DNA from: a virus
Length of the DNA: 20,696 nt
IMG/VR virus record: IMGVR_UViG_3300042516_001083
Span: 1-20,696 of that record
Reading direction: 5' to 3' (one strand)
The notes beneath the pieces are model-generated. The model was given only the letters and a program-made list of their open reading frames with translations. It ran no database searches and had not been told where the DNA came from. The position numbers and the translations under genes are program-made. This document shows positions 3,001 through 19,758 of this stretch, piece after piece (the first letter of the stretch is position 1; each line of letters begins with the position of its first letter).

Positions 3001-6000
3001 TGAACGGAGTGTCGCGCGGATTAGATGCTGGCCCACAGAATTGCCAGCCTCCAACGGTGACAAGTTGCTTCACCTCGTCGGATGGATCGCGAGCGAACGA
3101 CGTCAGATCGACGTTGTTTGCCTGCGACCATTCCCAGACCCGCTCAATTGCGAACTTCGTCGCCAGCGCCTCGCGCTCCCGCTCCTGCTCTCTGGCAAAC
3201 GACTCGGTCGCGTTCTCTGCGATCGTCCCGCCACGCACCGCCTCGTCGATCTCCGCTGCCGCGTTGTTTGCAGCCACTGCCTCGGCGACTTCGCGGCGCA
3301 CGTCGTCGGACGCCATGTCCGCCTCCATCGCCTCGCTCATCGCCTTGCGGTAGTCCTGTCCAGCCGGGTCGTCTGCCGCGCCAAATGCCGCGTAGAGTTC
3401 CTTCTCCGTGTACCAGAGCCCCGCCTGCGCGTCCGCGAGTTGATAGTCCAGCCCAGTCTGGTTGCGCACGCTGACGATCGCCTCGTTGACCAACTGCCGC
3501 ATCAGCGAGCGGATGTAGTTGGAGTCCGGGGCAGCCGCCGAGGCATCGATTGCCTTGGCGTACCGAACGAGAGCCGCCTCGACGGGCGTCTTCTCGCGCA
3601 TCTTGAGCGCGTTGCCGACCACGACGCGGTTGTTCGGATCGCGCGGGAACGTCTTGTTGAACTCGCGAGCCGTATCCTCCAGCACAGCCGGGTTGATCAA
3701 CGCCTCCGGGCTCACCAGATCGAGCGACCGCTGCGCAGCCTGCTTCTCCTCCTCGCTGGACGTCTCCGACGCGAGCACGGCACGCGCCTTTGCCAGTTCG
3801 GTGGCAATGTCGCGCACCGCGCTGCGAACCGCCGTCGCATCCGGGCGGCGCAGTCCGCCAAGGGGTCGGAAGAACGTCCGGGTGAACCACACGTCCGCCG
3901 TCAGGGTGTCGAAACGCTTGTGGAGGTTGTTGTAGAACGACCCGATCTTCGGGCCGAGCACCGACGACATGTAGGTGACGTCGTCAGCCGAGTCCTTGAT
4001 GATCCCGATCACGTCCGACAGCGACTTCTCTGCACCGTTGACGTCGATCTTGGTCGCGCGAAGGTACTTGTTGTGCTCCGCGACGGTCTTCTTCTCCAGC
4101 ATCATCCGCTCGACCGCATCCCACGACCCGAAGTGGTCGTAGAGCGCGTTCAACTTGTCGAAGTTCATCGTCATCGCGCCGACATGGCGCGCGTCGAATG
4201 CCTTCGGGATGCGGATCCGCTTGCGTCCGTTCGCCTTCCACTCCTCGTAGAGGGCGCGAGCCAGCAGTGCGTTCTGCTTGACCTTCTCGCCCTGCGAGGT
4301 AATGGCGAGCATCATCGCGAAGACCCGGCGATCGTCGGACTTGACGTCCGCCATCTCCGGATACTTCTTCGCCGCCTCCTCCCACATCGTGTCGATGATG
4401 CGACCGTACCACTCCAGCGCGGATTCCTCGCCAGCCTTGGTCGCCGCGTACTTCAGGTCTTCCGCCAGCGATTCGACGATGATCGTCTGGATGTCGCGCG
4501 GCATGGGGCTGCGCTCGCTGTACTCGTCCAGCCATCCGACGATCGACTGGCTGAACGAATCGAGCAGACCCTGCAGTTCTCCGACGGTGTAGTTGCGGTC
4601 GTTGGCTGCCCGGTAGGACAGGATGCCGCGATCCGCCAGCAGGTCGCCGAACGTCTGCGCCTTGGCGTTCACCACCGCCTGCTGCGCCTCCGCAAGTTCC
4701 TGCTTTCGCGCCATGGCAGTGATGACCAGCGGGTGCGACACGCGCCAGTCGTCGATCCTCTGGGTGATCTCGTTGATCTCGGCACGAAGGCCAGCGATCC
4801 GCTGCCGGATGGCGAAGTCCTCGCGCTTCAGCGCCAGAGCCTCCTCCGGGGTCGCCGCAGCCTTGATCTGCGCAGCCGGGATGGTGGTCGTCGCCAGTTG
4901 CTTGGCGCGCGCCTCCATGTCCGTTCGCTGCGAGAGCGACGCCAGCATGGCCTGCAGTTCCTGCGACAGGTACGGAAGGACGAACGAGTCCTTCAGCATG
5001 TCCGTGTCCTTGCCGAGACGGATGTACTCCTCCGCAAGGGCAGTGCGCTTCTCCTGCTTCAGCCGCTCCGCAGTCTTGCCCTTCAGGATCTTGCGCAGTT
5101 GGCGACGTCGCGCCTGCACGGCCTTGCTGGCGCGCTGATACGACGCCTGCGCGCGATCGGCAGAGCGGAGAGCCTGCTCGATCGCTGCCTGCGCAGCGCG
5201 CGTCTCCGACCTCTTGGCTGCTGGCGTGGTCTCGACGGCGCGGTACAGCCACTGGGACGCGGACAGCAGTCGCCCCTTGACCTCCGGCGGGATGGATTCC
5301 AGTTCGCTCTGGAGCGCGAGCGTCAGGTTGACAAGCGAGATGCGTCCAGAATTGCCGACGAAGATGCTGCTACTCGGCGCTGCACGTCGGCTATTCCCTT
5401 GAGGTTCGCCAGTACCTGTTCGCGCGACATCCCCTGCCACAACTGCGCTGGGTTTTCCGTCCTCGGAGAGTTGTACAGCAACTGCAACGTCGCCTCCAGT
5501 TCCTCCGGCTGCAACGCGAGCCAGTCGCGACTTGTCAGCGGCAAAGCCTGCAAGGCCAGTGTTGCGTATTGCTCGTCGCTCATCTGCGGAGAGATTGAGT
5601 TTGGCGAACCAGACGCCGGGGTAGTTGGTGACGTTTCCATTCTCATCGGTCTCCGGAACCCAGCCCTCTGCCTTCCAGTACTTGACCATCGTGTCGATGT
5701 AGTCATCGACCGACAGTCCCGGCGGCGGCGACAGGTACTCGGGATTCCACGGGCTAAAGCCCAGAGGCCCGAAATTCGTGTCGGCGACGAACCCGAACAT
5801 GCGGTAGGCGGTCGGCAACTTGCCGTTCGTCTCCGTCTGCCCGGGCCGACGAACATCGTAACAATCGCAACGCATCTCGACGTCGGGATATCGAGAAATA
5901 GCGTGCAACATCACGGGAGCGATAATGTCGGTGATGTCGCCCTCGTTGCTGTACAGACCGACGGCCTCGTCGTACCGCTCCGCGACCTGTCCCTTCTCGT

Positions 6001-8971
6001 CGAGGTACTCGGTCTTCTTGATCATGTACGCCACGTCGAGCCCGGGAATTCCGTAGGGCTCAAACGAGATGCGTGCCTGCCGACCGTTGTCGTCCACGAC
6101 CTGCGGCGTGGAAATCTGGTCGATCGTGTACTGCGTCAGCGTCAGCGTCGCCTTGTTGCGCTTGTGCCCAGCGAGGTACTCCGCAGGCGTGAGCGACCGG
6201 AACGACAGGTTCGCCATGCTCGCCGCCGCCGACAGGAACCGACGCGACATCGCAAGCCGCTCACCCTCGCGCATCTTGCCAGCGCCGACCAGCGACGCTC
6301 GGAGTTTGGTGAGCACCTCCATCTTCTCCATCCTGCCGACTTGCTTCTTGCGAGCGGCGGCGGCAGCAAGTTCCGCAGGCGTCGCCTTCGGCTTGACGTT
6401 CCGCGCAGCCATCGCCTCGGACACGGCAGCGGCAGCAGCCTGCTTGGGCGGCAACTTCTCCTTGCCCTTTGAGGTCTCGATGGTCGCGGCGGTCTGCTCC
6501 TGCTGATCCTTCGTCGCGTCCTCGATGTCGCGCGCGAAGTTCACGTCCATGTTGTTTGCCCACAGCAGCGTGCGCGCGAGCGGCGACAGCGTGGCGTCCG
6601 CAGCCTGCACGCCAGCGACGTTCTCGATCGCTGCAGCACGCTGGGCGACGTCAAACACCGCCATGGCAGCCATCGTCTCCCTGCCAAGGAACCCGCGACG
6701 GGCAGCGAATCTGGCAAGCGGAGCAAGAACGCGGTTCGTCGTGGCGCCCTGCGCGGCTGCGGCGAATGCGTTCGCGGTTCCTTCCTGCTCGATGCGCGCC
6801 GCACCAGCGCGAGCCTCTGCGCCGCTGATCTGCGACGTGCGCCCCTCCAACTGGTTGATCACGTCCTCCGCCTGCGCGATCGCAGAACGGTCAAGACGCT
6901 CGATGGCTGCGGTCTCCCCGCGACCACGCAGCGCGTAATCGACGCCTGCGTTGTAGATCGGCGACAGGCCAGCCTTCTCCATGAACACCGCCGCCAGTTG
7001 CGGCTGGAACATCTGGATGTCGTGGAAGACCTCCTCCAACGCCTGCGCCATCATCGAGTTCGGGTTGGCATCGGCGTTCAGGTACACGACGCCCCGGGAA
7101 CGCATCGAGTGGAATGCCGGGTTGAACTTGCCGTCCGTTGCCCGGAACCAAACCACGCGACGACCGAGCGCCTCGACCTGCTGCTGGACGCGCTTGCCCT
7201 TCTTCGTCGGGCTTGCCTCTACCAGTGTCACTCCTGCCCGGGTGCCAACGTCCGTCAGCACCTGCTTCGGCTCCGCCTGCTCCATCAACGCAGGCATCTC
7301 GCTGATCTTTTCCGCTACGGCATTATGAGTTGCCGAAGCCATAAGTCGATCAGTCGCAACGACTTGCAGTTCGTCGTCGATCTGCTTGATCCGATCTTCG
7401 ATAGCAGTAACAGACTGTTCGGCTCCGGCGGTGGCGCGCGCGCCCATGAGCGCGACGTCCAGTTGCTGCCGCTCGTTGAGCAGGTTCTCCGCACGCTCCT
7501 GCGTCTGGACTCGACGCTCCGCCAGATCCACGAGGAACGCGCCCCGCTGCTCCTGCGTCATCCCGTTCAGGCTGTCCAGCGCGACGGCAACCTGCGCAGC
7601 CTGCGCGGAATCAAGGTCGGCAGTCCAGTTGGTCTTGGCCTTCAGCGCCTCGGAGTGCTTCACCCGCAGCACGCGCTCCGCGTCGGTCTCCGGTCGCAGT
7701 GCGTCTCGACGGTTCATCAGGGCGCGGTTGCCCGTGACCGCAAGCACGGATCCAGTACCGCCGATGCCGCCTGCGACGCCGCCGACGAAGGCTCCGTACA
7801 GCCCCTCCGTGATGTCCTCCGACAACGGAGCCGCCGTGAACGGCGCCATCAACGCACTGGAGACCAGTTCTTCCGTGCCTTCCTCGACGCCGGAGGCAGC
7901 CACGATTCCGGCAGCCCTACCGAGAAACCCGTTGCGGAACGATGCGGTGCCGTTGGACAGCCGCATGAACGCATCGACGCCTGCCTTGCCAGCCTTGCTT
8001 TCCAGCGCCCGGGTCGCGAGCGGAACGCCGCGCTCAAGGAACGGACGCATGGCAGCCTGCCCGACTTTGGACTTCACGCCATACCCGGCAAGCCGACCGA
8101 TCACCTTGCCGCCCAGCGAAGCACCGCCGAGTTCGACGCCGCTCTCGATGACCGCCTGCGCCTCCGCGCGCGTGCGCGACTTGGCAAGCGAGTACTCCGT
8201 CAGAGGTCGCCCCTCGATGGCGTCCAGCGCGCGCTGCTGATCAGTCTCCTCGATGTCGGCAATGAAGCCAGACGAGTACGCCGTCAGCGGCATCAGCGAC
8301 ATCGCAGCGATCGACGCAGCAACCGGGACGTTTCCGGTCGCAAGCGCGCCAGCAGTACCGACAGCCTGCGGCAGGTTCTGACCGACGGCACGGACGATGT
8401 CTGCAGCAATGCCTTCCTGCTGCCCCTGCTGCATTCCCTGCGCGGCACCGCGCATGGCGATCAGTTCCGTCCGCAAGTCATCCACGGACAGGCCGGAACC
8501 CTCGGGCTCCACGGCCTGCGACACCTTGTCCGCCACAATCTGTGCGGTCATCTGCCGGACAGCGGGATCGGCGTCGCTGAACAGATCGGCGACCATCTCG
8601 ACCGGGCGCATGACCGACCGAAGGAACTGACCGCGCATACCCGGCGTCGCGATCGCCTGCGCAGCCTGATCAATTCCCATGCGCAGACCGCGCTCGATCT
8701 CGCGAGGCTGAACGCCGAACGTCATCATCGTCCCCATGGGGCCGACGATGGGCGTGACCAACTGGTCTTCGTACTGCTGCGCAGCGATCTGCATCAGATC
8801 GGCTTCGCCGACGCCGCCGCCGGGGACGGCACCCGGAGCCTGCGCAGTCTCCAGTTTGGCAATCTCGTCGATCGCCGTGGCAAACGCCGTCTTCTTCGGG
8901 GCGGACTGGGGGCTGTCGGGCTGCACCTGCTGGCGCAGCACGTCGTCGATCGCCTTCTGGAAACTCGACAT
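2..8971 (-). CDS. Giant multidomain phage polyvalent protein, probably virion-ejected (C-terminus beyond window)
   Basis: An ATG at 8971 opens a frame I read codon by codon to position 2 with no stop: at least 2990 residues, still open at the left edge. A GAGGA ribosome site lies 5 bases upstream, and the start is 9 bases after the stop of the preceding gene. Visible order by residue: disordered N-terminus (1-50); helical, glycine-zipper, membrane-interacting region (about 60-410); coiled coil (415-550); zincin-like segment (590-665); GNAT-like segment (930-1145); helical coiled-coil region (1210-1500); segment resembling a helical family of large phage proteins (1510-1895); ADP-ribosyltransferase-like (1970-2118); kinase-fold (2135-2325); helical region (2330-2740); coiled coil with a duplicated IGxxxGxxxG motif (2755-2990). 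Its place after internal-virion-like genes fits a protein packaged in the capsid and delivered with DNA, as T4 Alt, P1 DarB or N4 vRNAP are. The domain names are inference; the open frame is direct observation. Confidence 0.93.
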   Translation of the reverse strand, partial: MSSFQKAIDDVLRQQVQPDSPQSAPKKTAFATAIDEIAKLETAQAPGAVPGGGVGEADLMQIAAQQYEDQLVTPIVGPMGTMMTFGVQPREIERGLRMGIDQAAQAIATPGMRGQFLRSVMRPVEMVADLFSDADPAVRQMTAQIVADKVSQAVEPEGSGLSVDDLRTELIAMRGAAQGMQQGQQEGIAADIVRAVGQNLPQAVGTAGALATGNVPVAASIAAMSLMPLTAYSSGFIADIEETDQQRALDAIEGRPLTEYSLAKSRTRAEAQAVIESGVELGGASLGGKVIGRLAGYGVKSKVGQAAMRPFLERGVPLATRALESKAGKAGVDAFMRLSNGTASFRNGFLGRAAGIVAASGVEEGTEELVSSALMAPFTAAPLSEDITEGLYGAFVGGVAGGIGGTGSVLAVTGNRALMNRRDALRPETDAERVLRVKHSEALKAKTNWTADLDSAQAAQVAVALDSLNGMTQEQRGAFLVDLAERRVQTQERAENLLNERQQLDVALMGARATAGAEQSVTAIEDRIKQIDDELQVVATDRLMASATHNAVAEKISEMPALMEQAEPKQVLTDVGTRAGVTLVEASPTKKGKRVQQQVEALGRRVVWFRATDGKFNPAFHSMRSRGVVYLNADANPNSMMAQALEEVFHDIQMFQPQLAAVFMEKAGLSPIYNAGVDYALRGRGETAAIERLDRSAIAQAEDVINQLEGRTSQISGAEARAGAARIEQEGTANAFAAAAQGATTNRVLAPLARFAARRGFLGRETMAAMAVFDVAQRAAAIENVAGVQAADATLSPLARTLLWANNMDVNFARDIEDATKDQQEQTAATIETSKGKEKLPPKQAAAAAVSEAMAARNVKPKATPAELAAAAARKKQVGRMEKMEVLTKLRASLVGAGKMREGERLAMSRRFLSAAASMANLSFRSLTPAEYLAGHKRNKATLTLTQYTIDQISTPQVVDDNGRQARISFEPYGIPGLDVAYMIKKTEYLDEKGQVAERYDEAVGLYSNEGDITDIIAPVMLHAISRYPDVEMRCDCYDVRRPGQTETNGKLPTAYRMFGFVADTNFGPLGFSPWNPEYLSPPPGLSVDDYIDTMVKYWKAEGWVPETDENGNVTNYPGVWFAKLNLSADERRAIRNTGLAGFAADKSRLARVAAGGTGGDVAVAVQLSEDGKPSAVVAGDVARTGTGEPQGNSRRAAPSSSIFVGNSGRISLVNLTLALQSELESIPPEVKGRLLSASQWLYRAVETTPAAKRSETRAAQAAIEQALRSADRAQASYQRASKAVQARRRQLRKILKGKTAERLKQEKRTALAEEYIRLGKDTDMLKDSFVLPYLSQELQAMLASLSQRTDMEARAKQLATTTIPAAQIKAAATPEEALALKREDFAIRQRIAGLRAEINEITQRIDDWRVSHPLVITAMARKQELAEAQQAVVNAKAQTFGDLLADRGILSYRAANDRNYTVGELQGLLDSFSQSIVGWLDEYSERSPMPRDIQTIIVESLAEDLKYAATKAGEESALEWYGRIIDTMWEEAAKKYPEMADVKSDDRRVFAMMLAITSQGEKVKQNALLARALYEEWKANGRKRIRIPKAFDARHVGAMTMNFDKLNALYDHFGSWDAVERMMLEKKTVAEHNKYLRATKIDVNGAEKSLSDVIGIIKDSADDVTYMSSVLGPKIGSFYNNLHKRFDTLTADVWFTRTFFRPLGGLRRPDATAVRSAVRDIATELAKARAVLASETSSEEEKQAAQRSLDLVSPEALINPAVLEDTAREFNKTFPRDPNNRVVVGNALKMREKTPVEAALVRYAKAIDASAAAPDSNYIRSLMRQLVNEAIVSVRNQTGLDYQLADAQAGLWYTEKELYAAFGAADDPAGQDYRKAMSEAMEADMASDDVRREVAEAVAANNAAAEIDEAVRGGTIAENATESFAREQEREREALATKFAIERVWEWSQANNVDLTSFARDPSDEVKQLVTVGGWQFCGPASNPRDTPFMCMHNTDDPLFNPYRNRRALGSLCFTTHQKPIGSFGKYQVGYYVIGQRVLTIDCEQRPWDSVPVWNIPDTELVAVFEDYRTSSTDEVVRQARKLGYDVVQFHNVDDDGGLHDEIVITGRNNLVSPMTGNTLLFDDKHLWKQIGGIPPISALQYVKTLGGSTGARLFADERGGQWVVKAGADQDHQANEVAALRGYQFLNGHVPQFSEEFDMDKNEWRTVTKFLDGAVTIGEFRRDNDETYETSPVATMLQRDFVDHVLMRNWDVIGLEADNVLVDPVSQQLFYVDVGGALDYRAMGAPKQGIGRFTFASELVSMYQRNGNWFSRPDASVVVNRVFDVARQIAELQNPAIFEEDLTADERREADAKYRQIPSSLRQSVEYAMAFMLGRNSFSLNEMETFYREGAFEFAVKRINAILNGVDPDDIDVNPHTSNVNDENLEKWIRGEENAIPPTAWLLPEAQDYRVDPAKWKTAYDAIVRIEVGIGNKDIPLLKQAIQELSSVYLSELTGEGSIARRILRHANHVVLNAQTETFAEDLLGHMSEVERQRVTASIDLARLDKAQKEFVTLALMSENSDAMIAMAATVVNMTRFRPSATQIEWMLEALVNNISQVLENKRPYQQVNMMLATISLLEKNGISTADINAVLTKQRAAYRRRMESRWLEFVLRAARSQQEWLDYSRGISKELLAVLEVLNVNEPDGFAEFYPPLMLMFEDIVSAMNPGMSVDGPWINSDSDVSERMTIAWKKLPPTNAPLIVGAESMARNTDDESQIKGLQAQIADLQRQMRDVQNVTAAQRANAMNEVKMLTRKLTALTLLAEQKSGQASRMKARLERAMEQNTADKASASETVAALNKKLDEAAVRIQKLKADVRDQRSAVRDVLDVVAETEDKVDRVANWAYAIGRNEGLVAGQVAGAQAVQRPYRKRIEILEARVQQAKANLRLAEQRIKQDAKAAQRAIDFAHRIGMHHGQIQGMMIARVPLLRKMEAREASMQRQMTAIRTM
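74..328 (-). repeat. Duplicated IGxxxGxxxG motif in coiled coil of the giant protein
   Basis: Residues 2882-2966. The pattern A-x-x-(W/F)-A-x-x-IG-x-x-x-G-x-x-x-G appears twice: around W2885/I2889 and around F2948/I2952, exactly 63 residues apart. The stretch between them is a charged coiled coil. This looks like a tandem structural repeat that may continue beyond the left edge. It is a protein-level repeat; I do not see long DNA identity. Confidence 0.45.
1997..2569 (-). other. Protein-kinase-fold (HipA/PI3K-like) domain of the giant protein
   Basis: Residues about 2135-2325. A glycine-rich loop LGGSTGA (2147-2153) is followed by WVVKAG with K2167 as candidate ATP-binding lysine, then QANEVAA with E2178 as its helix-C partner. 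The catalytic stretch is NWDVIGLEADN (2251-2261), followed 14 residues later by the metal-binding strand YVDVGGALDYRAMG (D2275). The lysine, the glutamate, an Asn/Asp catalytic loop and a D-x-G motif are all present in the right order. The NWD.IG...DN and DxGGAL.YRA.G signature is familiar from kinase-like domains of phage and effector proteins. Substrate unknown; it appears intact. Confidence 0.6.
2618..3064 (-). other. ADP-ribosyltransferase-like domain of the giant protein
   Basis: Residues about 1970-2118. The segment begins with MHNTD at 1993-1997, which fits the H-x-T of the first ART strand. A G-x-x-CFT strand start follows (GSLCFTT, 2011-2017). Next are YQVGYYVIGQRVLTIDCE and a helix TDEVVRQARKLGYDVVQF. 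The module ends with NVDDDGGLHDEIVI, which provides the acidic strand where a catalytic glutamate usually lies (candidate E2103). The final GYDVVQFHNV...EIVI layout matches ART-like modules in phage polyvalent proteins. NAD-dependent modification of a host protein, as by T4 Alt, would be the expected role but is inferred. Confidence 0.5.
3287..4444 (-). other. Helical domain resembling a conserved family of large phage proteins
   Basis: Residues about 1510-1895 have an ordered set of motifs: W..I..MW..AAKKYPE (1521-1538), AITSQGEKVKQN at 1556-1567, LGPKIGSFYNNL at 1672-1683, then TADVWFTR at 1691-1698, and finally DAQAGLWYTEKELY at 1847-1860. The order SQ...N, then G.K...F..NL, then T.D.W..R, then D.QA..WY.EK is familiar from uncharacterised domains in phage virion and polyvalent proteins, and looks like a helix-hairpin-helix type helical core. 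I cannot give a catalytic function. The conserved polar residues suggest a functional site rather than scaffold. Confidence 0.4.
5537..6184 (-). other. GNAT-like acyltransferase segment of the giant protein
   Basis: Residues about 930-1145. Strands around LDVAYMIKK and YDEAVGLYS are followed by a helix (DIIAPVMLHAISRYP) and a strand containing MRCDCYDV. Then comes LPTAYRMFGFVADTNFG at 1052-1068, which has the L-x-x-x-Y-x-x-x-GF pattern typical of the C-terminal half of GNAT acetyltransferases. The segment ends with WVPE and PGVWFAKL strands. Acetyltransferase-like domains with a DC(F/Y) strand before this motif occur in phage polyvalent proteins. The acetyl-CoA loop (Q/RxxGxG/A) is not evident, so activity is uncertain. 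Confidence 0.4.
6977..7204 (-). other. Zincin-like metallopeptidase segment with altered active-site motif
   Basis: Residues about 590-665 follow the layout of metallopeptidase-like segments in large phage proteins: a helix, the strand LGRRVVWFRATDG, a second strand VVYLNADAN, then a helix that would carry HExxH and run into a second helix (FQPQLAAVF). The motif reads EEVFH at residues 646-650. The glutamate and the second histidine are present, but the first histidine is replaced by glutamate. If the family call is right, this copy probably cannot bind zinc normally and may be structural or a binding module. Confidence 0.4.
7742..8404 (-). other. Membrane-interacting, glycine-zipper region of the giant protein
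   Basis: Residues about 190-410 of the giant protein. They contain a hydrophobic run rich in Ala, Met and Leu (residues 203-229), then paired Gly/Ala-rich helices. A SGVEEGTEEL motif at 365-369 and onward is followed by a segment of small residues, LYGAFVGGVAGGIGG, at 391-405. The spacing of an acidic EEGTEE turn followed by a Gly-zipper helix recurs in large internal phage proteins that are thought to cross or line the host envelope during DNA entry. I see the composition and motifs directly. The membrane role is inference. Confidence 0.55.
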
Positions 8972-11807: not shown

Positions 11808-13957
11808 CAGTAGGTTCCCTTCACGTTCTTGGTGTGGCCGTAAGGCTCGACCAGCACGGCCATGCGCTCGATAGCCCAAGGTACGCCAAGGCTTTCGATT
11901 CGCACATACGCCGCCTGATCGCGGATCCGGCACCGGAAAGCGTCGTTCCTGCCGGGAAGCAGCGTCCCGAGCGGGTTCTGGTTGGTGTTGTCGTAGGTCG
12001 CGCTGCTGACCGTGTAGCGCGGGGACACGATGTCCGACGGGAGATTGAACCCCAACTGCTTCTGTGCCGAGTAGTAGGTGTAGGTTCCGCCGGGGGTGTC
12101 AGCCGACGTTCCGGGGAGTGTCTCGTCACGGAGCATCATGGTCGCATTCGGGTTGGTCGTGTGCTGGATTTGCCAGTCCGTCGAGGCACCAGACACGTTG
12201 TAGACCCGATTGATCTGCTTGGTGTAGGTACGCCCGGTCGGGTCGGTGATCAGGGTGTCGGAGGTCAGGTACGTCCCGGCGATCTCCGTCTCGTAGAACA
12301 GGTCGAGCGCCTTGTCCGTCGCCGTAGACCACGAGGTGTTGTAGACGCCGCAGTCGTAGGTGGTCGTCGGGCTGAACACCGCATGGGTTCCGCAGTCCAC
12401 CAGCACCTCCGGGAAGTCGGGATCCTCGGTCACGGTCACGGAGGTGATGTTCTCTCCGATCGCCTCCTCGGCGGTCTGACCGGACAGGATCGATGCGAAC
12501 GGGCCGGACAGTCGCTCAACAGGAGTGTTGAACGCAGATTCCTCGATCGGCTCGTCCATCGTCAGTTCGATGCGAACGTCCTTCATCATCACCTGACCGA
12601 GCGACGGCTGAAGCACAGGGCCGAACGTCAGGCTGCTCGTGATCTTCTGCGCAGCCGCCTCCGTGTTATCCACGGCGAAGTCGCTGATCGCCTTGTACCC
12701 GACCGCAGCCTGACCATCCACGCCGGAAACGAGGTCGCGGTCGAACCACCCGATGTAGCCGTCCTCGCTGCCGAAGGCAAGGATCGGGGCGCGAGAGTCA
12801 CCGAACGGAAAGTCTCCGCAGCAGGTCGGGGCATGGAACGCAGGCCACCCGGTCTGGATCGGCCAGAAGGCGTCCGTCGCCTGACTGTAGAGCAGGTGGA
12901 CGCTGCTTGCAGGGAGGTCGGTGCGCGACATCATGCAGTAGACGTTCTGCGCCTCCGCGTCGTACCCAAGAACGCAGTTCAGGGCATCGAACTTCTGCTG
13001 CTGGAAGAAGGTGTCGAGTCGACCGCTCGTGATGCGACCGCTCTTCGTCACCTGAAAGTCGTTCGGCTGGACGCGGTATAGACCGTCCTGCGCCATCATG
13101 TAGATCGTCTGCGCGTCTGAAGCGCACCACGCACGCTCGGACACGATGCCGACCGAACGCGACAGTTCGATCAGCCGCGCGTCCGTCACCACCGGGTCGG
13201 CGGTCAGGTAGGTCATCGTGTGCCGTCCGGCGAACAGCAAGCCGCTCTCGCCAACAGGGACGAGCGCGACGATCGGCTCACCGGGAACGCCGAATCGCGT
13301 CGAGGACACGCCATTAACAGCGTCATGTACGTTTCCAGCACTCGGATGCCAGTCGTCCGGGTCGTTGATATGGCACAGGAACCAGTTGTTCGGAGCGGAC
13401 TTCAGTCCGGACATGGCAAGACGACCGCCGAATCGGACAAGCAACGTCGCTCGATTTGCACCGCTGCCGATGTAGTTGTACGGGCCGTTTGCGTGCGTCC
13501 AATCCAAGACTGCCGGAGTCGCACTAGTGATGTCAACCTTCCGATAGAACTCGCCGTCCGCAAAGTAGCAGTACTGCCCGAACACAGCCGCGCCAATATG
13601 GCCCGACGACTTCATGGCGTTGATGCCAGCACCGCGTGTGCATAGTGTCGCAGTGCCACCGTTGTCGATGACGTAGACCTCTCCGCCAGCAACAACGATG
13701 CACCTCTGGGTCAGCGTGCTGCTGACGTATGCATCCGCGCGCAGGATCACCTGCACCTCGCGGATCGCAGCCGTCGGGCTGGTGTTGAACCGATACGCCC
13801 CGAGAAGCGGCCTGCGCTGCCCGAGCCGCAACTTCCCCTTGTAGGCGTCGTAGGGGATCACGTTCATCGCCTGCGCGGTGAAGCCCGGAGGCAGCGCGGA
13901 ATACGAGGAATCCACGCTGACGCCGCGATACGGGAGTGTGACCGGGGAGTATGGCAT
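11807..13957 (-). CDS. Tail nozzle / head-completion stabilisation-type protein (beta-rich)
   Basis: The product has 716 residues. The N-terminal PYRGVSVDSSYSALPPGF stretch and KLRLGQRRPLL (41-52) are typical openings of phage nozzle or stabilisation proteins. Repeated strand-turn units follow, such as IVVAGGEVYVIDNGG, AAVFGQYCYFADG and LLVRFGGRLAMSGL. The motif NDPDDWHP near 198-205 is characteristic of this family, where a D-P-x-x-W turn occurs in a beta-propeller. P22 gp10 and T7 gp12 have analogous roles: closing the portal and carrying fibres or needle. The start overlaps the fibre gene stop as TGATG, and the end overlaps the next ATG likewise. No tail-tube or sheath gene is in view, supporting a short tail. 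Family assignment is by motif and layout. Confidence 0.82.
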   Translation of the reverse strand: MPYSPVTLPYRGVSVDSSYSALPPGFTAQAMNVIPYDAYKGKLRLGQRRPLLGAYRFNTSPTAAIREVQVILRADAYVSSTLTQRCIVVAGGEVYVIDNGGTATLCTRGAGINAMKSSGHIGAAVFGQYCYFADGEFYRKVDITSATPAVLDWTHANGPYNYIGSGANRATLLVRFGGRLAMSGLKSAPNNWFLCHINDPDDWHPSAGNVHDAVNGVSSTRFGVPGEPIVALVPVGESGLLFAGRHTMTYLTADPVVTDARLIELSRSVGIVSERAWCASDAQTIYMMAQDGLYRVQPNDFQVTKSGRITSGRLDTFFQQQKFDALNCVLGYDAEAQNVYCMMSRTDLPASSVHLLYSQATDAFWPIQTGWPAFHAPTCCGDFPFGDSRAPILAFGSEDGYIGWFDRDLVSGVDGQAAVGYKAISDFAVDNTEAAAQKITSSLTFGPVLQPSLGQVMMKDVRIELTMDEPIEESAFNTPVERLSGPFASILSGQTAEEAIGENITSVTVTEDPDFPEVLVDCGTHAVFSPTTTYDCGVYNTSWSTATDKALDLFYETEIAGTYLTSDTLITDPTGRTYTKQINRVYNVSGASTDWQIQHTTNPNATMMLRDETLPGTSADTPGGTYTYYSAQKQLGFNLPSDIVSPRYTVSSATYDNTNQNPLGTLLPGRNDAFRCRIRDQAAYVRIESLGVPWAIERMAVLVEPYGHTKNVKGTY

Positions 13958-15060
13958 CAGGAACGAATGCCGATGAACAGGGTGTTGGTCTGTCCGGACA
14001 GCCGAAGCAGAAGACCGTTGTATGTTCCGCTGGTCGAGTAGACGTACTGCGCGTTGGTAGCGAATGTTCCAGCAATCGACTGGTACGAAATCGCGGCAGT
14101 ACCGCCGACGTTCAGCGACGTGGTGGACGTGGTAATCGCACCGTTTCCGATCAGTTCGCTGGTAAGCGACCCGGTGAACACGGCAAGGACGAGCGCGCCA
14201 GCCTGCGTGTTGTCGAACCTGTTGAGGTAATTGGTCTTCGTCTCGTCGGCCATCGAGCCATAGGCCAGAAGCGTCTTCACCTGCGCTGCGGTCAGTTCGA
14301 TCGGCGCGGCAGAACTTCCGGTGTTGTTGCCGATGAGTCGCGCAGTTGTAATGTTCGCAAGGGCGGACAGCGGAACGTCAGTGTTGGCATCGAACGCTCC
14401 GGAAGCAAGCGTCCCGAATCCGAGCGCAGTTCCGGCGCGGCGAAGGACATGGCCGTCGGTTCCTGCGGCAATGTCGGCAGGAGCGCCAGTCGAGTTCGCG
14501 GAGCGACCGATGACGGTCAGCGCGGTCGATTGACGCAACTTCGCGTCGGTGACGCCGTCGCTCGTTCCGGTCGCGCTCTTGATCTTCGCCGTCTCGACGG
14601 CGTCGTTGGCAAGTTCCGTGACCGTGATGCTCCCCGCATACTGGCTGACCGCCACCCACGTCGTCCACGCGCTGCCGTCGTAGCCGCGCGCGAACGCCTT
14701 CTGCGTCTTGGTCGAGACGAGCAACTGCGCGATCGTTCCGCCGGACAACTTGGTGACGTGCAGGACGCCGGGGCCGTCCGACGCAGGCGTCCAAGCGGAC
14801 GGGACGTTCGACGTGACTGTCGTCGCGATCGCATACCGACCCTGCACGCTGTACCCGGCGGCGTTGATGTCAGTGCCGGACACCGTCACCTGCGGGTAGG
14901 TGCTGGAGACGTAGCCGAGCGAAGTCCACGCGGTCGTCGCGTCACCGATCTTGACGTTCCCGGTGTCGGTTTCAAAGCCGATCTCACCGGACTCAAGAGT
15001 CGGGTTGGAACTCGTCCAGTTGGACGCGGTGCCGCGACGGATCTGCAACTTGATCGCCAT
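13957..15060 (-). CDS. Tail fibre protein with pyocin-knob-like domain
   Basis: The product has 367 residues. The N-terminal MAIKLQIRRGTASNW...ETDTGNVKIGD pattern (1-45) is the common virion-attachment motif of phage fibres. Residues about 58-140 resemble a pyocin-knob fold: a GY.VQGRYAIAT strand, a P.GVLHV strand, then TKTQKAFARGYDGSAWTTW. Fibre-shaft repeats follow (TELANDAVETAKIKS, then LTVIGRSANSTGAPADI and HVLRRAGTALGFG), a well-known modular phage sequence. The C-terminus is Ser/Thr/Gly-rich and probably holds the receptor-binding or trimerisation tip. An AGAGGA-type ribosome site lies 7 bases upstream, and the ATG overlaps the lipoprotein stop as TAATG. It is one of two fibres in the window. 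Confidence 0.88.
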   Translation of the reverse strand: MAIKLQIRRGTASNWTSSNPTLESGEIGFETDTGNVKIGDATTAWTSLGYVSSTYPQVTVSGTDINAAGYSVQGRYAIATTVTSNVPSAWTPASDGPGVLHVTKLSGGTIAQLLVSTKTQKAFARGYDGSAWTTWVAVSQYAGSITVTELANDAVETAKIKSATGTSDGVTDAKLRQSTALTVIGRSANSTGAPADIAAGTDGHVLRRAGTALGFGTLASGAFDANTDVPLSALANITTARLIGNNTGSSAAPIELTAAQVKTLLAYGSMADETKTNYLNRFDNTQAGALVLAVFTGSLTSELIGNGAITTSTTSLNVGGTAAISYQSIAGTFATNAQYVYSTSGTYNGLLLRLSGQTNTLFIGIRS

Positions 15061-15775: not shown

Positions 15776-16078
15776 TTAGATGAACACTCGGTATGGGATC
15801 GTCGGAATCGGCTCAAACGTCGGCAACTCGTCCTCCTGCGCCTTCGTCAACTCAAATGACACGCGGATGTTCGCGTGGTAGCGGTTGTCGCCGGGACGCA
15901 GAATCACGCCCTCCTCGTCCACCTGCGCCGGGATCGCCCCGATGCGGTCAAGCGTGACACCCGTGACGGGCAGCACCATGACCTCGCCGTCCTCGTCGGT
16001 GCGTTCCTCGGCAAGCCCTGCGGCGATGAGGGCATCGTCGAGGTCGGACTCGGTGGTTGAGCGGAGTAGATAGTCCAT
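15776..16078 (-). CDS. Conserved-type small phage protein beside tail fibre, function unknown
   Basis: A 100-residue acidic protein. It begins MDYLLRSTTESDLDDALIAAGL, continues with a strand-rich middle (VMVLPVTGVTLDRIGAIP), and has HANIRVSFEL near 68-77. Short proteins with this DYLLRS...DRIG...NIR layout are common next to phage fibre genes, sometimes annotated only as hypothetical. No signal, membrane helix or catalytic motif is visible. The ATG follows the fibre stop by one base with no ribosome site, so it is probably translated by coupling. A role as fibre-associated or assembly protein is possible but unproven. Confidence 0.75.
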   Translation of the reverse strand: MDYLLRSTTESDLDDALIAAGLAEERTDEDGEVMVLPVTGVTLDRIGAIPAQVDEEGVILRPGDNRYHANIRVSFELTKAQEDELPTFEPIPTIPYRVFI

Positions 16079-16079
16079 G

Positions 16080-17960
16080 TCAGAGAGTGGTGATGGAGTT
16101 GAGGGTTGCCTGCGGAAGAGCGGTCGGCCAGAACTTGATTTGACGAAGCCAACCGTTCATGACGTTCACGGCAGTCGAATCACCGTTGCAACCGATACCC
16201 AGATGCGTCACAACGGATCCCAATGCGGCTGGAGCAGTTGTTGCCGCCGCATCGGTCACGCCATCACGCGAACCGATAAACGATGCCGAGTCGATTGCGG
16301 ATGCAAACTTGTGTCGCGTGTTGTAGGCAAGGCCAGTGATCATCGTCCTATCGGTATTCGGTAACGCGGAAACCTTGCGATGCACAGACATCGTTGCTGC
16401 CGTGTAGTAATAAATCTCGTTTCCGTAGGAGAACGCACCGCCAGCAGTTCGGTCGAACAATCGTGCGAGGTTCAGGAACCCTGCATTCGGAGTCATCGGG
16501 ATGCAATCCACGAACAGCGTGTTCGGATACGGATTGCCAGTGATGAACAAACTCGTCGGCATCGTGCAGTAATCAGCCGCCCTGCTCCCCGTGCTTGCCC
16601 CGGTCGGGATGTACGAGGATGCGCCGGAGCCGAGTTCGACTTGTGCGCCCCAAACGTAGATACCGTTGTTTGTTCCCGTATACGCAGGAAGACCAGCAGT
16701 CGCATTCTTCGTTGTCGCGTTGTAGATGTAGAACAACGTGGATGCCGCAGGAGCATTCATCGTGACCGAAATCCGCCACCATCCTCCGGGGTGCTGAACA
16801 GCGCGTGGAGTGACCGTACCCGGAGTACCAGCCGTGTAAGCAGTTCCGGTAGTTCCATCGGCAAGATCGAAGATCACGGAATAATCGGTTGCTGCCCCGC
16901 TCAACGTGATTCGCAGTCCAGCCAGCGTTCTCGTTCCATCTCCGCGAACAAACACGGAGAACGTGTATTGCGAACCAGATGTCACACCAACCGCCGTAAA
17001 CACAGTATGCGCGCTGTTCGCGGTGTCTTCTACCAATCGAATTGAGGATGCCAACCCCGCCGGGTTTGTTTGCGTTGTTGCAGTAACCGCAGATCCATTT
17101 AGTCCTGATGGATTCCAGTTGTTGCTTCCACCAGATACAGCAAATGACTCTGACAATGCAGTCAGATTGTTCGCACTCCCCTCAATCAGCAGTCCGCGAG
17201 GCTGGAGCGTGGTCGGGTCGTAGTCGAAGCGGGGGGCGTAGTAACCATTCGCTACGCTTCTGTTATACGGATTGGCTGTTGTTCCAATGTTGAGTTGGGG
17301 CGCCCAGATATAAACAGAGTCTCCTGCGGATTGTGTCGGTGTGTTTGGATAAATATACAAACCACCAGTACCAGCACCCGTTGGAGTAATGACAAGTTGC
17401 AGCAAAGTCCAATCGGTTGTTAGTCCGGTTACTGTGTGATAGGTAGAACCAGACCCACTTCCCTGAATTGTACCATTTCCGCTAACAATCGAAAGTACCG
17501 AGGGCTGAAAACTACTAACCAAAAACCCCATTGAAACTCGCGTACTAGTCGCGGCGCGAACCCAGACACGAACCGTGTATGAAAATCCAACCGCCAGATT
17601 TGCTCCAAGAATTGTTGAGGCACTTCCGGGAGAAGTTACCTGTAGTTGTATTGAACTAGTTCCACCAAGAGGATTAGTAATGGTTACTAGTGATCTTGCA
17701 ACATTTGGCCCATCCCAACCAGCCGCCGATGGGGTTTCGCTGTTTTGAAACACGTTCGCATCGGCGTACTGCACCAACCCCTGCGAGTTGATGAAGGTGG
17801 CGTTGGTCGTGCGCGTGAACGTCAGGCGCGGGTCGAGGACGCCCGTGGTGAAGTCCAGCGAGAGCGTGGAGCCGTCTCCGCCCTCTACCGGGAGCGTGCG
17901 CTGCCGACAACGCTCGACCGGGTCAGAGCCGAGCAGCCATGTCCGGTTGCGTGCGTGCAT
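16080..17960 (-). CDS. Large chimeric tail fibre with two carbohydrate-binding-like domains
   Basis: The product has 626 residues from the ATG at 17960 (TGATG overlap with the upstream stop). A longer frame reaching 18167 is inside the previous gene and is rejected. The N-terminal LDPRLTFTRTTNATFINSQGL (42-62) is a common phage fibre opening. Two jelly-roll-like modules follow, at about 65-235 and 262-455. Each ends similarly (VYIWAPQLNIG...NPYNRS and IYVWGAQVELGS...YIPT), and between them lies APRFDYDPTTLQPRGLLIE. Residues 462-626 resemble a LamG/concanavalin-like fold, closing with NGWLRQIKFWPTALP. The product would bind host surface glycans. The first module has strongly lower GC (37-45% in sample lines), suggesting acquisition. 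Confidence 0.87.
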   Translation of the reverse strand: MHARNRTWLLGSDPVERCRQRTLPVEGGDGSTLSLDFTTGVLDPRLTFTRTTNATFINSQGLVQYADANVFQNSETPSAAGWDGPNVARSLVTITNPLGGTSSIQLQVTSPGSASTILGANLAVGFSYTVRVWVRAATSTRVSMGFLVSSFQPSVLSIVSGNGTIQGSGSGSTYHTVTGLTTDWTLLQLVITPTGAGTGGLYIYPNTPTQSAGDSVYIWAPQLNIGTTANPYNRSVANGYYAPRFDYDPTTLQPRGLLIEGSANNLTALSESFAVSGGSNNWNPSGLNGSAVTATTQTNPAGLASSIRLVEDTANSAHTVFTAVGVTSGSQYTFSVFVRGDGTRTLAGLRITLSGAATDYSVIFDLADGTTGTAYTAGTPGTVTPRAVQHPGGWWRISVTMNAPAASTLFYIYNATTKNATAGLPAYTGTNNGIYVWGAQVELGSGASSYIPTGASTGSRAADYCTMPTSLFITGNPYPNTLFVDCIPMTPNAGFLNLARLFDRTAGGAFSYGNEIYYYTAATMSVHRKVSALPNTDRTMITGLAYNTRHKFASAIDSASFIGSRDGVTDAAATTAPAALGSVVTHLGIGCNGDSTAVNVMNGWLRQIKFWPTALPQATLNSITTL

Positions 17961-18463
17961 CAGATGAATCCGATGAGGGCGTTGGCGCTGCCGCTTGCGG
18001 CAACCATCTGCAACTCCACCATCTCGCTTCCGGCGAGGTCGATGATCACGAAGCCGCCCGGGCAGGACGCTTCCTCGCCGTTGTAAATCTTCAGGTCGCC
18101 AAGGCTCTTCAGGTAGTCGCGACCGGGGCGAAGGCTGCTGACGGCTGATCCAGACGTGGTGCTGCACGTCACGGTGAACTTGGTCAGCAACTTGGGGATC
18201 CAGAGCGACACAGCAGTCGAGTACGTCCAGCCGATCGCGTAGCAGGTCAGGGCAACCGATGCCGTATTCAGCGTCTGCAGCACGAGGTAGTTCATGTTCG
18301 TGCCGATGACGATGCTGTTTCCGGTCGTCGTAGGCTTGGTGGCCGTAGCCACTCGTGCCGTCGCAGACGACGCTGCCGTGATGTTGGTCGCGTTCGCAAG
18401 TTCAAGTACCGCCGGAACGGTTCTGGTGGCGGTGACGGTTGACATCATTCCGAGAAGGCTCAT
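17960..18463 (-). CDS. Small phage structural protein, unknown family
   Basis: A 167-residue protein, strand-rich and Thr/Ala/Val-rich (IVIGTNMNYLVLQTL, VALTCYAIGWTYS, GGFVIIDLAGSEMVELQ). I see no signal peptide or membrane segment. A good AAGGA ribosome site lies 6-8 bases before the ATG at 18463, supporting this start over the internal methionines at 6 and 7. It sits between the head-tail adaptor and the fibre, 9 bases after the adaptor stop, and ends as TGATG with the fibre. The Gly/Leu core and position suggest a neck or fibre-attachment component, but this is guesswork from context. Confidence 0.75.
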   Translation of the reverse strand: MSLLGMMSTVTATRTVPAVLELANATNITAASSATARVATATKPTTTGNSIVIGTNMNYLVLQTLNTASVALTCYAIGWTYSTAVSLWIPKLLTKFTVTCSTTSGSAVSSLRPGRDYLKSLGDLKIYNGEEASCPGGFVIIDLAGSEMVELQMVAASGSANALIGFI

Positions 18464-18472
18464 GGTGGTTCC

Positions 18473-19192
18473 TTACGAGGGATTCTGCACTGGGTTGAGG
18501 ATGATGAAGCCGGGGCCGTTCCGAGTTCCGGAACGCCACAGGTTCGGCTGTACCTGTCCGAAATGGCTCTGCACCATTCCGTCCTTCTGCTTGGCCGCGC
18601 CGAAGATCGGGCCAGCCTCGATCTCCGCGAACCGCTGGCTTTGCTGCCCGTCCTCGTATGCCTCCGCTACGGCGCGGACATACGAGATGAGGGTTGCCTC
18701 GACGTGCTTCGGGATCGAGATGACCTCCGAGGTCGCCGTCGAACTGGTGACGGACTGCCACCCGATTCGATACAGAACCTTCAGCGGCTCTGCGGTGGTC
18801 GGCGTTGGATACAACTCCAGACGGAACGACTGCGTCGGGGCAAGCGTCGTCGGAAGCACCGTCTTGACGTAGGCACGCCACGTCAGATCCGGGTAGTTGG
18901 TCTGACGAGCCGTCTCGACTTCCTCCGGAGACTGGATCCAGAGCGGATAGTCGTCCTTCCAGACCTGCGTCAGTTCAGCGAAGTCGGACGGGAGCGCAAC
19001 GTAGGACTGCGACACGACCGTCGTGACGGTCGCAGTCGCCTCCCGAAACTTCCACGGGTGGGTGAACAGATGCTCCCCTGCGGTGTTGATGATCTCCGCC
19101 TGACGCTCCGCGACGGTCTGCCCGGAGGCCGTCGATGGACGACCGCCGATGGCAAGCAGGACGTGGTTCTTGAGATCGCCGTAGGTGAGCAT
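18473..19192 (-). CDS. Head-to-tail adaptor (tail tubular A-like / gp4-like) protein
   Basis: A 239-residue protein from the ATG at 19192. A GTG four codons upstream (19204) also opens the frame, but it lies inside a hairpin, so the ATG is preferred. The N-terminus MLTYGDLKNHVLLAIGG is helical. Residues 45-50 (HPWKFR) and the strand pair around SYVALPSDFAEL (63-74) match the W.FR.....Y.LP.DF pattern of podovirus adaptors such as P22 gp4 and T7 gp11, which link portal and tail. The C-terminal half has LYRIGW and a helix VEATLISYVRAVAEAYEDG. Its place after the capsid genes and before fibres agrees. Confidence 0.82.
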   Translation of the reverse strand: MLTYGDLKNHVLLAIGGRPSTASGQTVAERQAEIINTAGEHLFTHPWKFREATATVTTVVSQSYVALPSDFAELTQVWKDDYPLWIQSPEEVETARQTNYPDLTWRAYVKTVLPTTLAPTQSFRLELYPTPTTAEPLKVLYRIGWQSVTSSTATSEVISIPKHVEATLISYVRAVAEAYEDGQQSQRFAEIEAGPIFGAAKQKDGMVQSHFGQVQPNLWRSGTRNGPGFIILNPVQNPS

Positions 19193-19200
19193 GGGTAATT

Positions 19201-19228
19201 CCACTGGCCGGGTTTCCCCGGCCAGTGG
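19201..19228 (-). terminator. Perfect hairpin with GAAA loop after the decoration gene
   Basis: The bases ccactggccggg, tttc, cccggccagtgg form a perfect 12-base-pair stem with a 4-base loop. On the transcribed minus strand the loop is GAAA, a stable GNRA type. It begins 17 bases after the stop of the decoration gene. No U-tract follows (AATTACCC), so a full intrinsic terminator is unlikely. Partial termination, or 3'-end protection of capsid mRNA, is more likely. Confidence 0.6.
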
Positions 19229-19245
19229 TGAATGGTTGTGTCAGA

Positions 19246-19758
19246 TCACTGCATGTCGCGCTGGAACCAGAGGGCGCTGTTCAGAAGCACGTTGATCGTC
19301 GCTTCCGAACCAGCCGTCACGCTGCCGAGCGAGATCGCAGCCGGGTACACGGTCGTGACGCCAGCCGCGTTTCCGAACGTTCCCGCATCATCTTCCGGAG
19401 CGAGGTTCGTCCCGATGATGACGTTGGCAGTCGTGGCTGTGACCTTCGCGGCGACCACGCCACCGAACTGCACCTCGACGGCGGTGTCGTCGGCGCCTGC
19501 GTTCGCAAGCAGGCTGGTGACGACGCCGATGTAACCGGACTGGTCGAGGACGTTGCCGTCAGCCTTGACGACGGACGCGAACGGGGTAGCCGAGTAACTG
19601 GCAACCGTATCCGCCGCAGGATAGACGACTTCGGTGTGACCGAACGAGGTGATGACAACGTCACCGACCGCGAGGGCGCTGCCCTGACGGTTGATGCACG
19701 CCACCTTCGTGCCGACGGGCTGAAGGCCGATAGGGCCGTTGTTGGGTGAGAAAATCAT
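19246..19758 (-). CDS. Capsid decoration-like protein
   Basis: A 170-residue protein, strand-rich and low in charge: GLQPVGTKVACINRQGSALAVGDVV (11-35) followed by many Val/Ala/Thr strands such as AVEVQFGGVVAAKVTATTANV. It has no membrane helix. The small size, beta-rich makeup and position directly after the major capsid gene suggest a head decoration or capsid-stabilising protein. A strong AAGGAAGGA ribosome site lies about 9 bases before the ATG at 19758, which implies high expression, as expected for an abundant capsid component. Hairpins lie on both sides of the gene. The exact family is not recognised. Confidence 0.75.
   Translation of the reverse strand: MIFSPNNGPIGLQPVGTKVACINRQGSALAVGDVVITSFGHTEVVYPAADTVASYSATPFASVVKADGNVLDQSGYIGVVTSLLANAGADDTAVEVQFGGVVAAKVTATTANVIIGTNLAPEDDAGTFGNAAGVTTVYPAAISLGSVTAGSEATINVLLNSALWFQRDMQ

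Follow-up and report, generated by a model that had tools for sequence, protein, structure and literature searches.

The window analysed here is a 20,696-base stretch of DNA, an IMG/VR virus record. A low-GC segment within its fibre gene is read, with a probability of about 85%, as one interchangeable module with a CBM-like beta-sandwich fold. This module occupies slot 1 of a multi-slot virion fibre, is exchanged by recombination, and probably alters the glycan that is bound. The modules lie between conserved joints, slot 1 may be empty or filled, and near-identical phages carry different combinations of modules with boundaries at the joints. The same modules are also found on unrelated phage backbones.

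The fibre gene and its domains

The fibre gene and the genes around it are listed below, in coordinates of the window.

About 16080-17960 (16083-17960), minus strand: fibre (adhesin) gene, an open frame of 626 aa (P0001) in the tail protein family phrog_5939 (PHROG, E 3e-54)
17754-17876, minus strand: framework F1, a conserved joint, residues 29-69 (DGSTLSLDFTTG...TFTRTTNATFINSQGLVQYADAN)
17244-17753, minus strand: slot 1 module M1, a low-GC beta-sandwich, residues 70-239
17178-17243, minus strand: framework F2, the conserved joint between the modules, residues 240-261 (YYAPRFDYDPTTLQPRGLLIEG)
16656-17177, minus strand: slot 2 module M2, of the same fold family as M1, residues 262-435
16560-16655, minus strand: framework F3, residues 436-467 (VWGAQVELGSGASSYIPTGASTGSRAADYCTM), conserved in alignments; the alignment with relative L006 resumes at 16654
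16083-16559, minus strand: C-terminal domain, beta-rich, residues 468-626, also exchanged between sister phages
17960-18463, minus strand: gene of a 167-aa protein directly upstream of the fibre, a member of the travelling cassette that varies among sisters
15776-16078, minus strand: gene of a 100-aa protein directly downstream of the fibre, a conserved cassette member
18473-19204, minus strand: SU10-like adaptor gene (Pfam PF24175, E 8.5e-13), the backbone marker for sister phages

The motif GLVQYADAN is located at fibre residues 61-69 (17754-17780), and YAPRFDYD begins at residue 241 (17240). Invariant columns of the fibre family alignment cluster in F2.

The full-length fibre model contains three folded domains, which correspond to M1, M2, and the C-terminal domain, and has a pLDDT below 50 for F1 (residues 1-66) and F2 (242-261). 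With an overall pLDDT of 68 and a pTM of 0.39, it was used for domain limits only. The most conserved parts of the fibre are predicted by this model to be linkers, which a trimer could order. The C-terminal domain is modelled as strands and a C-terminal helix. It is probably lectin-like, judging from the model and from weak laminin-G, galectin, and pentraxin matches of the full fibre model. Whole-chain Foldseek matches of the full model were mosaics of beta domains and were set aside as family assignments.

Fold and homology of the modules

The AlphaFold model of M1, built from a 40-sequence alignment, is one compact beta-sandwich (pLDDT 88.5, pTM 0.87). Its best Foldseek matches are baseplate or fibre proteins of the Pseudomonas phages Pa193 and E217, followed by CBM families 4, 16, and 22. 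Against CBM4-2 the model gives an E of 1e-5 and a TM of about 0.6, which places it within the CBM4-like beta-sandwich fold. In Pfam, the CBM_4_9 score was 23.7 for the whole protein (in the M2 region) and 17.2 for M1, short of the curated cut-off of 25.9. By its model, M1 is a separate domain with a fold like that of CBM4/16/22. Phmmer matches of M1 to fibronectin monobodies were weak and were set aside, as profile searches and Foldseek point elsewhere.

The M1 and M2 profiles are homologous by hhalign (probability 99.5%, E 1.9e-22), and both match the head spike fibre of RcGTA (PDB 6tb9), with E values of 8e-20 and 3e-31, respectively. Residues 242-467 of P0001 match the same fibre with an E of 2e-21. 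A BLAST comparison of M1 with M2 within the window fibre found no same-locus match, so the two modules are not recent duplicates. An earlier reading made from the sequence alone had taken M1 for an extra copy of the module that follows it. The two do belong to one fold family and are not unrelated folds, but no recent copying is seen.

Exchange within the lineage of the window

The backbone marker was the adaptor gene at 18473-19204, with which 69 loci were fetched and a panel of 20 sisters was formed. Modules were clustered at an 80% identity threshold, and the sample is modest. The median pairwise DNA identity of the adaptor in this panel is 96.7%. F1 behaves like the backbone, with a median of 96.9% and none of the 190 pairs unalignable. 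M1 is unalignable in 137 of 153 sister pairs, the remainder being 94.8% identical, and M2 is unalignable in 174 of 190, the remainder being 99.9% identical. The C-terminal domain (20 of 21 pairs) and the region or gene upstream of the fibre (75 of 190) are also often unalignable. Pairs are thus either near-identical or unalignable, a bimodal pattern that indicates replacement and not gradual divergence.

Slot 1 varies among sisters: some leave it empty, some fill it with an unrelated insert of about 78 aa, and others with one of many modules. The commonest slot-1 module, M1 cluster 1, is combined with M2 clusters 1, 2, 3, and 9. M2 cluster 1 is found with M1 clusters 1, 2, and 7, and M2 cluster 3 with M1 clusters 1, 6, and 11.

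Individual pairs locate the edges of the exchanged units. The sister L006, whose flanks match the window best apart from those of L002, aligns with the window without gaps at 96.9% over 17751-19238. Most of both modules is then unalignable, and the alignment is back at 87% from 16654 down to 14756. The slot-1 module of L006 is 34% identical to that of the window. L221 and L238 are 97.6% identical as far as the end of F1 and share M2 at 96%; their M1 and C-terminal domains are different, and the match returns downstream of the latter. L234 and L235 are 98.8% identical for 4370 bp from F2 on and differ in the contents of slot 1, which in one of them is the insert of about 78 aa. L152 has the backbone of the window lineage and an empty slot 1. 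Its distal F1 residues differ from the occupied form, which places the L152 crossover upstream of the end of F1.

The independently assembled L002 carries the same fibre as the window (99.8% over 6156 bp). This agreement shows that the window fibre is not a local assembly chimera.

Slot states across the family

More than 300 relatives of the fibre are present in IMG/VR. By the number of residues between F1 and F2, they group into classes of 2-8 (empty slot), about 77, 153-206, and 359. The 80-locus sample is biased to module-bearing forms, the query having carried a module, and a sample selected by the F2 motif only was drawn to correct for this. It contains 50 relatives with the two motifs within 12 residues of each other versus 23 classed as one-module, further occupied cases being among its rows without an F1 found. 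DNA pairs over 57 loci are alignable in 1192 of 1596 cases for F2 and in 813 for F1, compared with 33 of 1035 for M1 and 40 of 1596 for M2.

The insert of about 78 aa (GTGSKSVTLTATAG...) has a high GC and shows no sequence relationship to the beta-sandwich modules; it is present in the sisters L235, L237, and L253 and in L015, L077, and L078. L061, with 359 residues from F1 to F2, apparently has two modules in tandem in slot 1. L036 has a second fibre match at positions 73-747 of its contig, near the other end, which covers the C-terminal part only.

The sequence-only reading had the two motifs normally close together in phage fibres, which is true for about half of these relatives. Its expectation that some relatives lack residues of about 68-238 is borne out, including by L152 on the same backbone. 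Relatives do not all share one module, and most sisters fill slot 1 too, with different modules, so the insertion is not peculiar to the window phage. The proposal of a host-range swap inside a gene had the right direction, since exchange is seen. It was too narrow for what appears to be a standing site of domain exchange with many swaps, and its host-range part is conjectural.

With the window M1 alone as the query, only its near-identical contig was matched, and no direct donor was found. The closest M1 relatives by protein (33-36% identity) are those of L006 and L018 and of the low-GC phages L011, L012, and L016. These sequence matches hint at a low-GC donor of M1. A single relative was identified in the genome collection (L085, 5001-5840), on a 58.7-kb contig of a Comamonadaceae MAG. 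This one case points weakly to a host group and does not suffice to name a host.

Sharing with unrelated phages

L004 and the window share three framework blocks at 90-98% DNA identity (F1 98%), between which the modules are unalignable. No similarity was found between the 3-kb upstream flank of L004 and L002, the near-identical relative of the window. The sister L227 and L004, the latter with an unrelated backbone, have M1 in common at 98.0% over 555 bp. L012, L025, and L038, with backbone GC of 0.42, 0.59, and 0.52, have M2 in common at 93-95% and differ in M1. In L036 and L068 (backbone GC 0.68 and 0.43) an identity of 90% begins exactly at F2, and slot 1 of L068 is empty. Boundaries coincide with framework edges in unrelated pairs (backbone GC 0.68 vs 0.43 and 0.42 vs 0.52), the exact crossovers inside the joints not being placeable because an alignment runs on through any conserved sequence.

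Every relative comes from metagenomic assembly, where conserved joints might give rise to some chimeric contigs. Three observations count against misassembly: the agreement of the window with L002, the recurrence of the same module combinations in separate samples (L222/L225/L232 and L235/L237), and the linkage of modules over kilobases to their own surroundings.

Base composition of slot 1

Fibre residues 70-236 (17253-17753) have a GC of 0.47 and a GC3 of 0.34. The preceding 69 codons, the N-terminal flank of M1, have a GC of 0.61-0.70 and a GC3 of 0.85-0.96, and the F2 motif segment has values of 0.64 and 0.79. M2 is also low, with a GC of 0.51 and a GC3 of 0.45 at its start. The other window genes tested have a GC3 of 0.77-0.88. 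Among 4736 in-frame 167-codon segments of the 13 annotated genes (mean GC3 0.78, sd 0.09), the minima all start at 17738-17753, and the lowest value outside the fibre is 0.53. The dip is thus far beyond chance. The abrupt change in GC is located at the joint.

The position of a low-GC segment between the two motifs, as read from the sequence alone, is right to a few bases, and the boundary given there, 17755, lies close to the edge of the L006 exchange at 17751. High GC had been ascribed to both flanks. This describes the N-terminal flank well, whereas downstream only the short F2 motif is high.

Across the family, M1 and M2 each average 0.084 GC (8 points) under the framework. Where the phage itself has a GC of about 42%, slot-1 modules mostly still reach 53%. 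The largest GC3 drop of the family set is that of the near-identical relative of the window (-0.59). Slot-1 GC3 in the lineage of the window ranges from 0.33 to 0.87 with a median of 0.62, the lowest values being those of the window module and the L224 module. With such a dip throughout the family, low GC alone does not signal recent import.

Proposed mechanism and alternatives

The fibre chain would consist of an N-terminal anchor, F1, an optional slot-1 module, F2, a slot-2 module, F3, and a C-terminal lectin-like domain. In co-infected cells, homologous recombination would occur between phages that share the conserved joints (F1, F2, and F3) and flanking genes. An exchange could replace one module, more than one, or everything in the distal part, with modules drawn from a pool common to sister and unrelated phages. 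Each new combination would probably alter which bacterial surface glycan is bound, and with it possibly the host range. Binding of a receptor or glycan by the modules is suggested by their fold, homology, and turnover. Such shuffling of attachment parts probably lets the virus family keep pace with changing bacterial surfaces. More tentatively, the conserved linkers may be kept as recombination joints through which unrelated backbones trade single adhesin domains. Within one species-level lineage, the adhesin would then be put together anew as a combination of upstream protein, slot 1, slot 2, and C-terminal domain; this is possible, and we lean somewhat against it.

A foreign extra module gained once by the lineage of the window would account for the relatives with an empty slot, the sister L152 among them, and for the extreme GC3 of the segment. 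Such a single insertion is improbable given that most sisters have a slot-1 module that differs from one to the next, that low GC is found family-wide, and that L006 has a module of its own at only 34% identity. Rapid diversification of a resident module by point mutation, whether under positive selection or by a diversity-generating retroelement, fits the retention of one fold despite strongly differing sequences, and the second fibre gene of the window has an Mtd_N domain. It is very improbable when set against sister pairs that are nearly identical or unalignable with intermediates absent, slot contents from none to more than 200 residues that include the unrelated insert of about 78 aa, and the abrupt GC change at the joint. 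As for a retroelement, a Pfam scan of 10 window proteins matched no reverse transcriptase, on a contig that is incomplete.

Variable units flanked by conserved joints are also what an intragenomic shufflon or silent-cassette system, flipping in stored module copies, would display. With essentially one framework copy per contig in 21 relatives (partial contigs), this is the most remote of the readings considered. One more reading accepts the exchange as real but takes the fibre for mainly structural decoration, with swaps selectively neutral as to receptor; it is unlikely. Consistent with that view, the fibre could belong to the head or to the tail, and the upstream protein is without a match to a known base protein. 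The CBM-like fold of M1, the homology of the modules to a capsule-dependent fibre, and the very high turnover of modules among near-identical phages argue against it.

Comparison with known systems

RcGTA particles attach to capsular polysaccharide through the head spike fibre Rcc01080 (PDB 6tb9; Bardy et al. 2020, PMC7296036), and this fibre binds cells more strongly with capsular polysaccharide present (PMC10218006). The M1 and M2 profiles match its beta-domain, and the match spans F2 through M2. In both systems the fibre gene adjoins the gene of a small protein. Unlike the window fibre, RcGTA apparently has the one-module form, its match starting at chain residue 67. The N-terminal Ile/Leu-Gly repeat of the RcGTA fibre docks into a base pentamer (PMC7296036), whereas the N-terminus of the window fibre is MHARNRTWLLGSDPVERC, and the docking repeat is absent from it and from most of the relatives listed. 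In sequence comparison, neither the upstream protein nor its 32-member profile matched any solved phage protein, Rcc01079 kin being sought as the base protein.

E217 gp45 and Pa193 gp46 (8env, 9b45), from the tail fibre or baseplate of Pseudomonas phages, are the top Foldseek matches of M1, and the profiles of both modules match them as well. They are other virion proteins, and the identity is low (17%).

Metaviromic islands and phage pan-genome modules combine near-identical cores with interchangeable, highly diverged host-recognition segments (Mizuno 2014, PMC3909814; Bellas 2020, PMC7468147). Recombination is offered as the cause in the latter, which includes one case of two variable domains in one reading frame (PMC7468147). 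The window fibre differs from these: its units are single domains between defined joints, one slot is optional, and modules also occur on unrelated backbones. Receptor-binding proteins are well known to shuffle domains (Smug 2023, PMC10684548), and T-even adhesin exchange at conserved motifs is a classical case (Tetart 1998, as cited in PMC7468147). Both resemble the window fibre in the exchange of specificity domains and in conserved motifs as crossover sites. The recent examples of Smug 2023 keep the N-terminus and swap the C-terminal domain; in the window fibre, internal slots between joints change independently. With its hypervariable segments, which lie between conserved motifs and are swapped among near-identical phages, the window fibre falls into the adhesin-exchange class. 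No description of the fibre family was found in open-access papers.

Interchangeable host-recognition segments, adhesin domain shuffling, and exchange at conserved motifs are therefore already known, while the internal optional slot, the single-domain resolution with identifiable joints, and the modules common to unrelated backbones are new. Recombination of phage host recognition is usually documented at the gene level or as exchange of fibre tips. In the lineage of the window, whose core is about 97% identical, each fibre has three or more internal units of exchange and an optional slot, and modules turn up again in other combinations and on unrelated phages. Should the modules differ in the glycans that they bind, these phages form a natural panel that is near-isogenic apart from one domain. 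Such a panel could be used to ask which domain determines host range and at what pace phages reassort it in nature.

Neighbouring genes

Homologues of the 167-aa protein adjoin the fibre in 43 of 49 candidate loci, and homologues of the 100-aa protein are present in 27 of 32. PDB, Pfam, and PHROG searches returned no match for either protein. This neighbourhood of the 167-aa protein, fibre, and 100-aa protein is kept across otherwise different phages, which indicates that the cassette itself also travels. The 167-aa gene (17960-18463) is swapped among sisters, while its last 30 bp or so and the fibre start stay conserved. The protein is possibly a fibre attachment or base protein.

A second mosaic junction is present upstream. 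The 97-99.8% identity of L006 and L002 to the window ends at 19238 and returns at 76-78% from 19759. From this break (19239-19758), the 170-aa gene between the adaptor and the capsid-region gene has been replaced in both L006 and L002.

The second fibre-like gene, with the Mtd_N domain (Pfam PF18454, E 1e-15), is located at 13957-15060. A gene of at least 2990 aa, without a Pfam match, occupies positions 2-8971 and runs off the window. It is opposed by plus-strand open frames of 1293 and 1159 aa, which are probably a by-product of high GC3.
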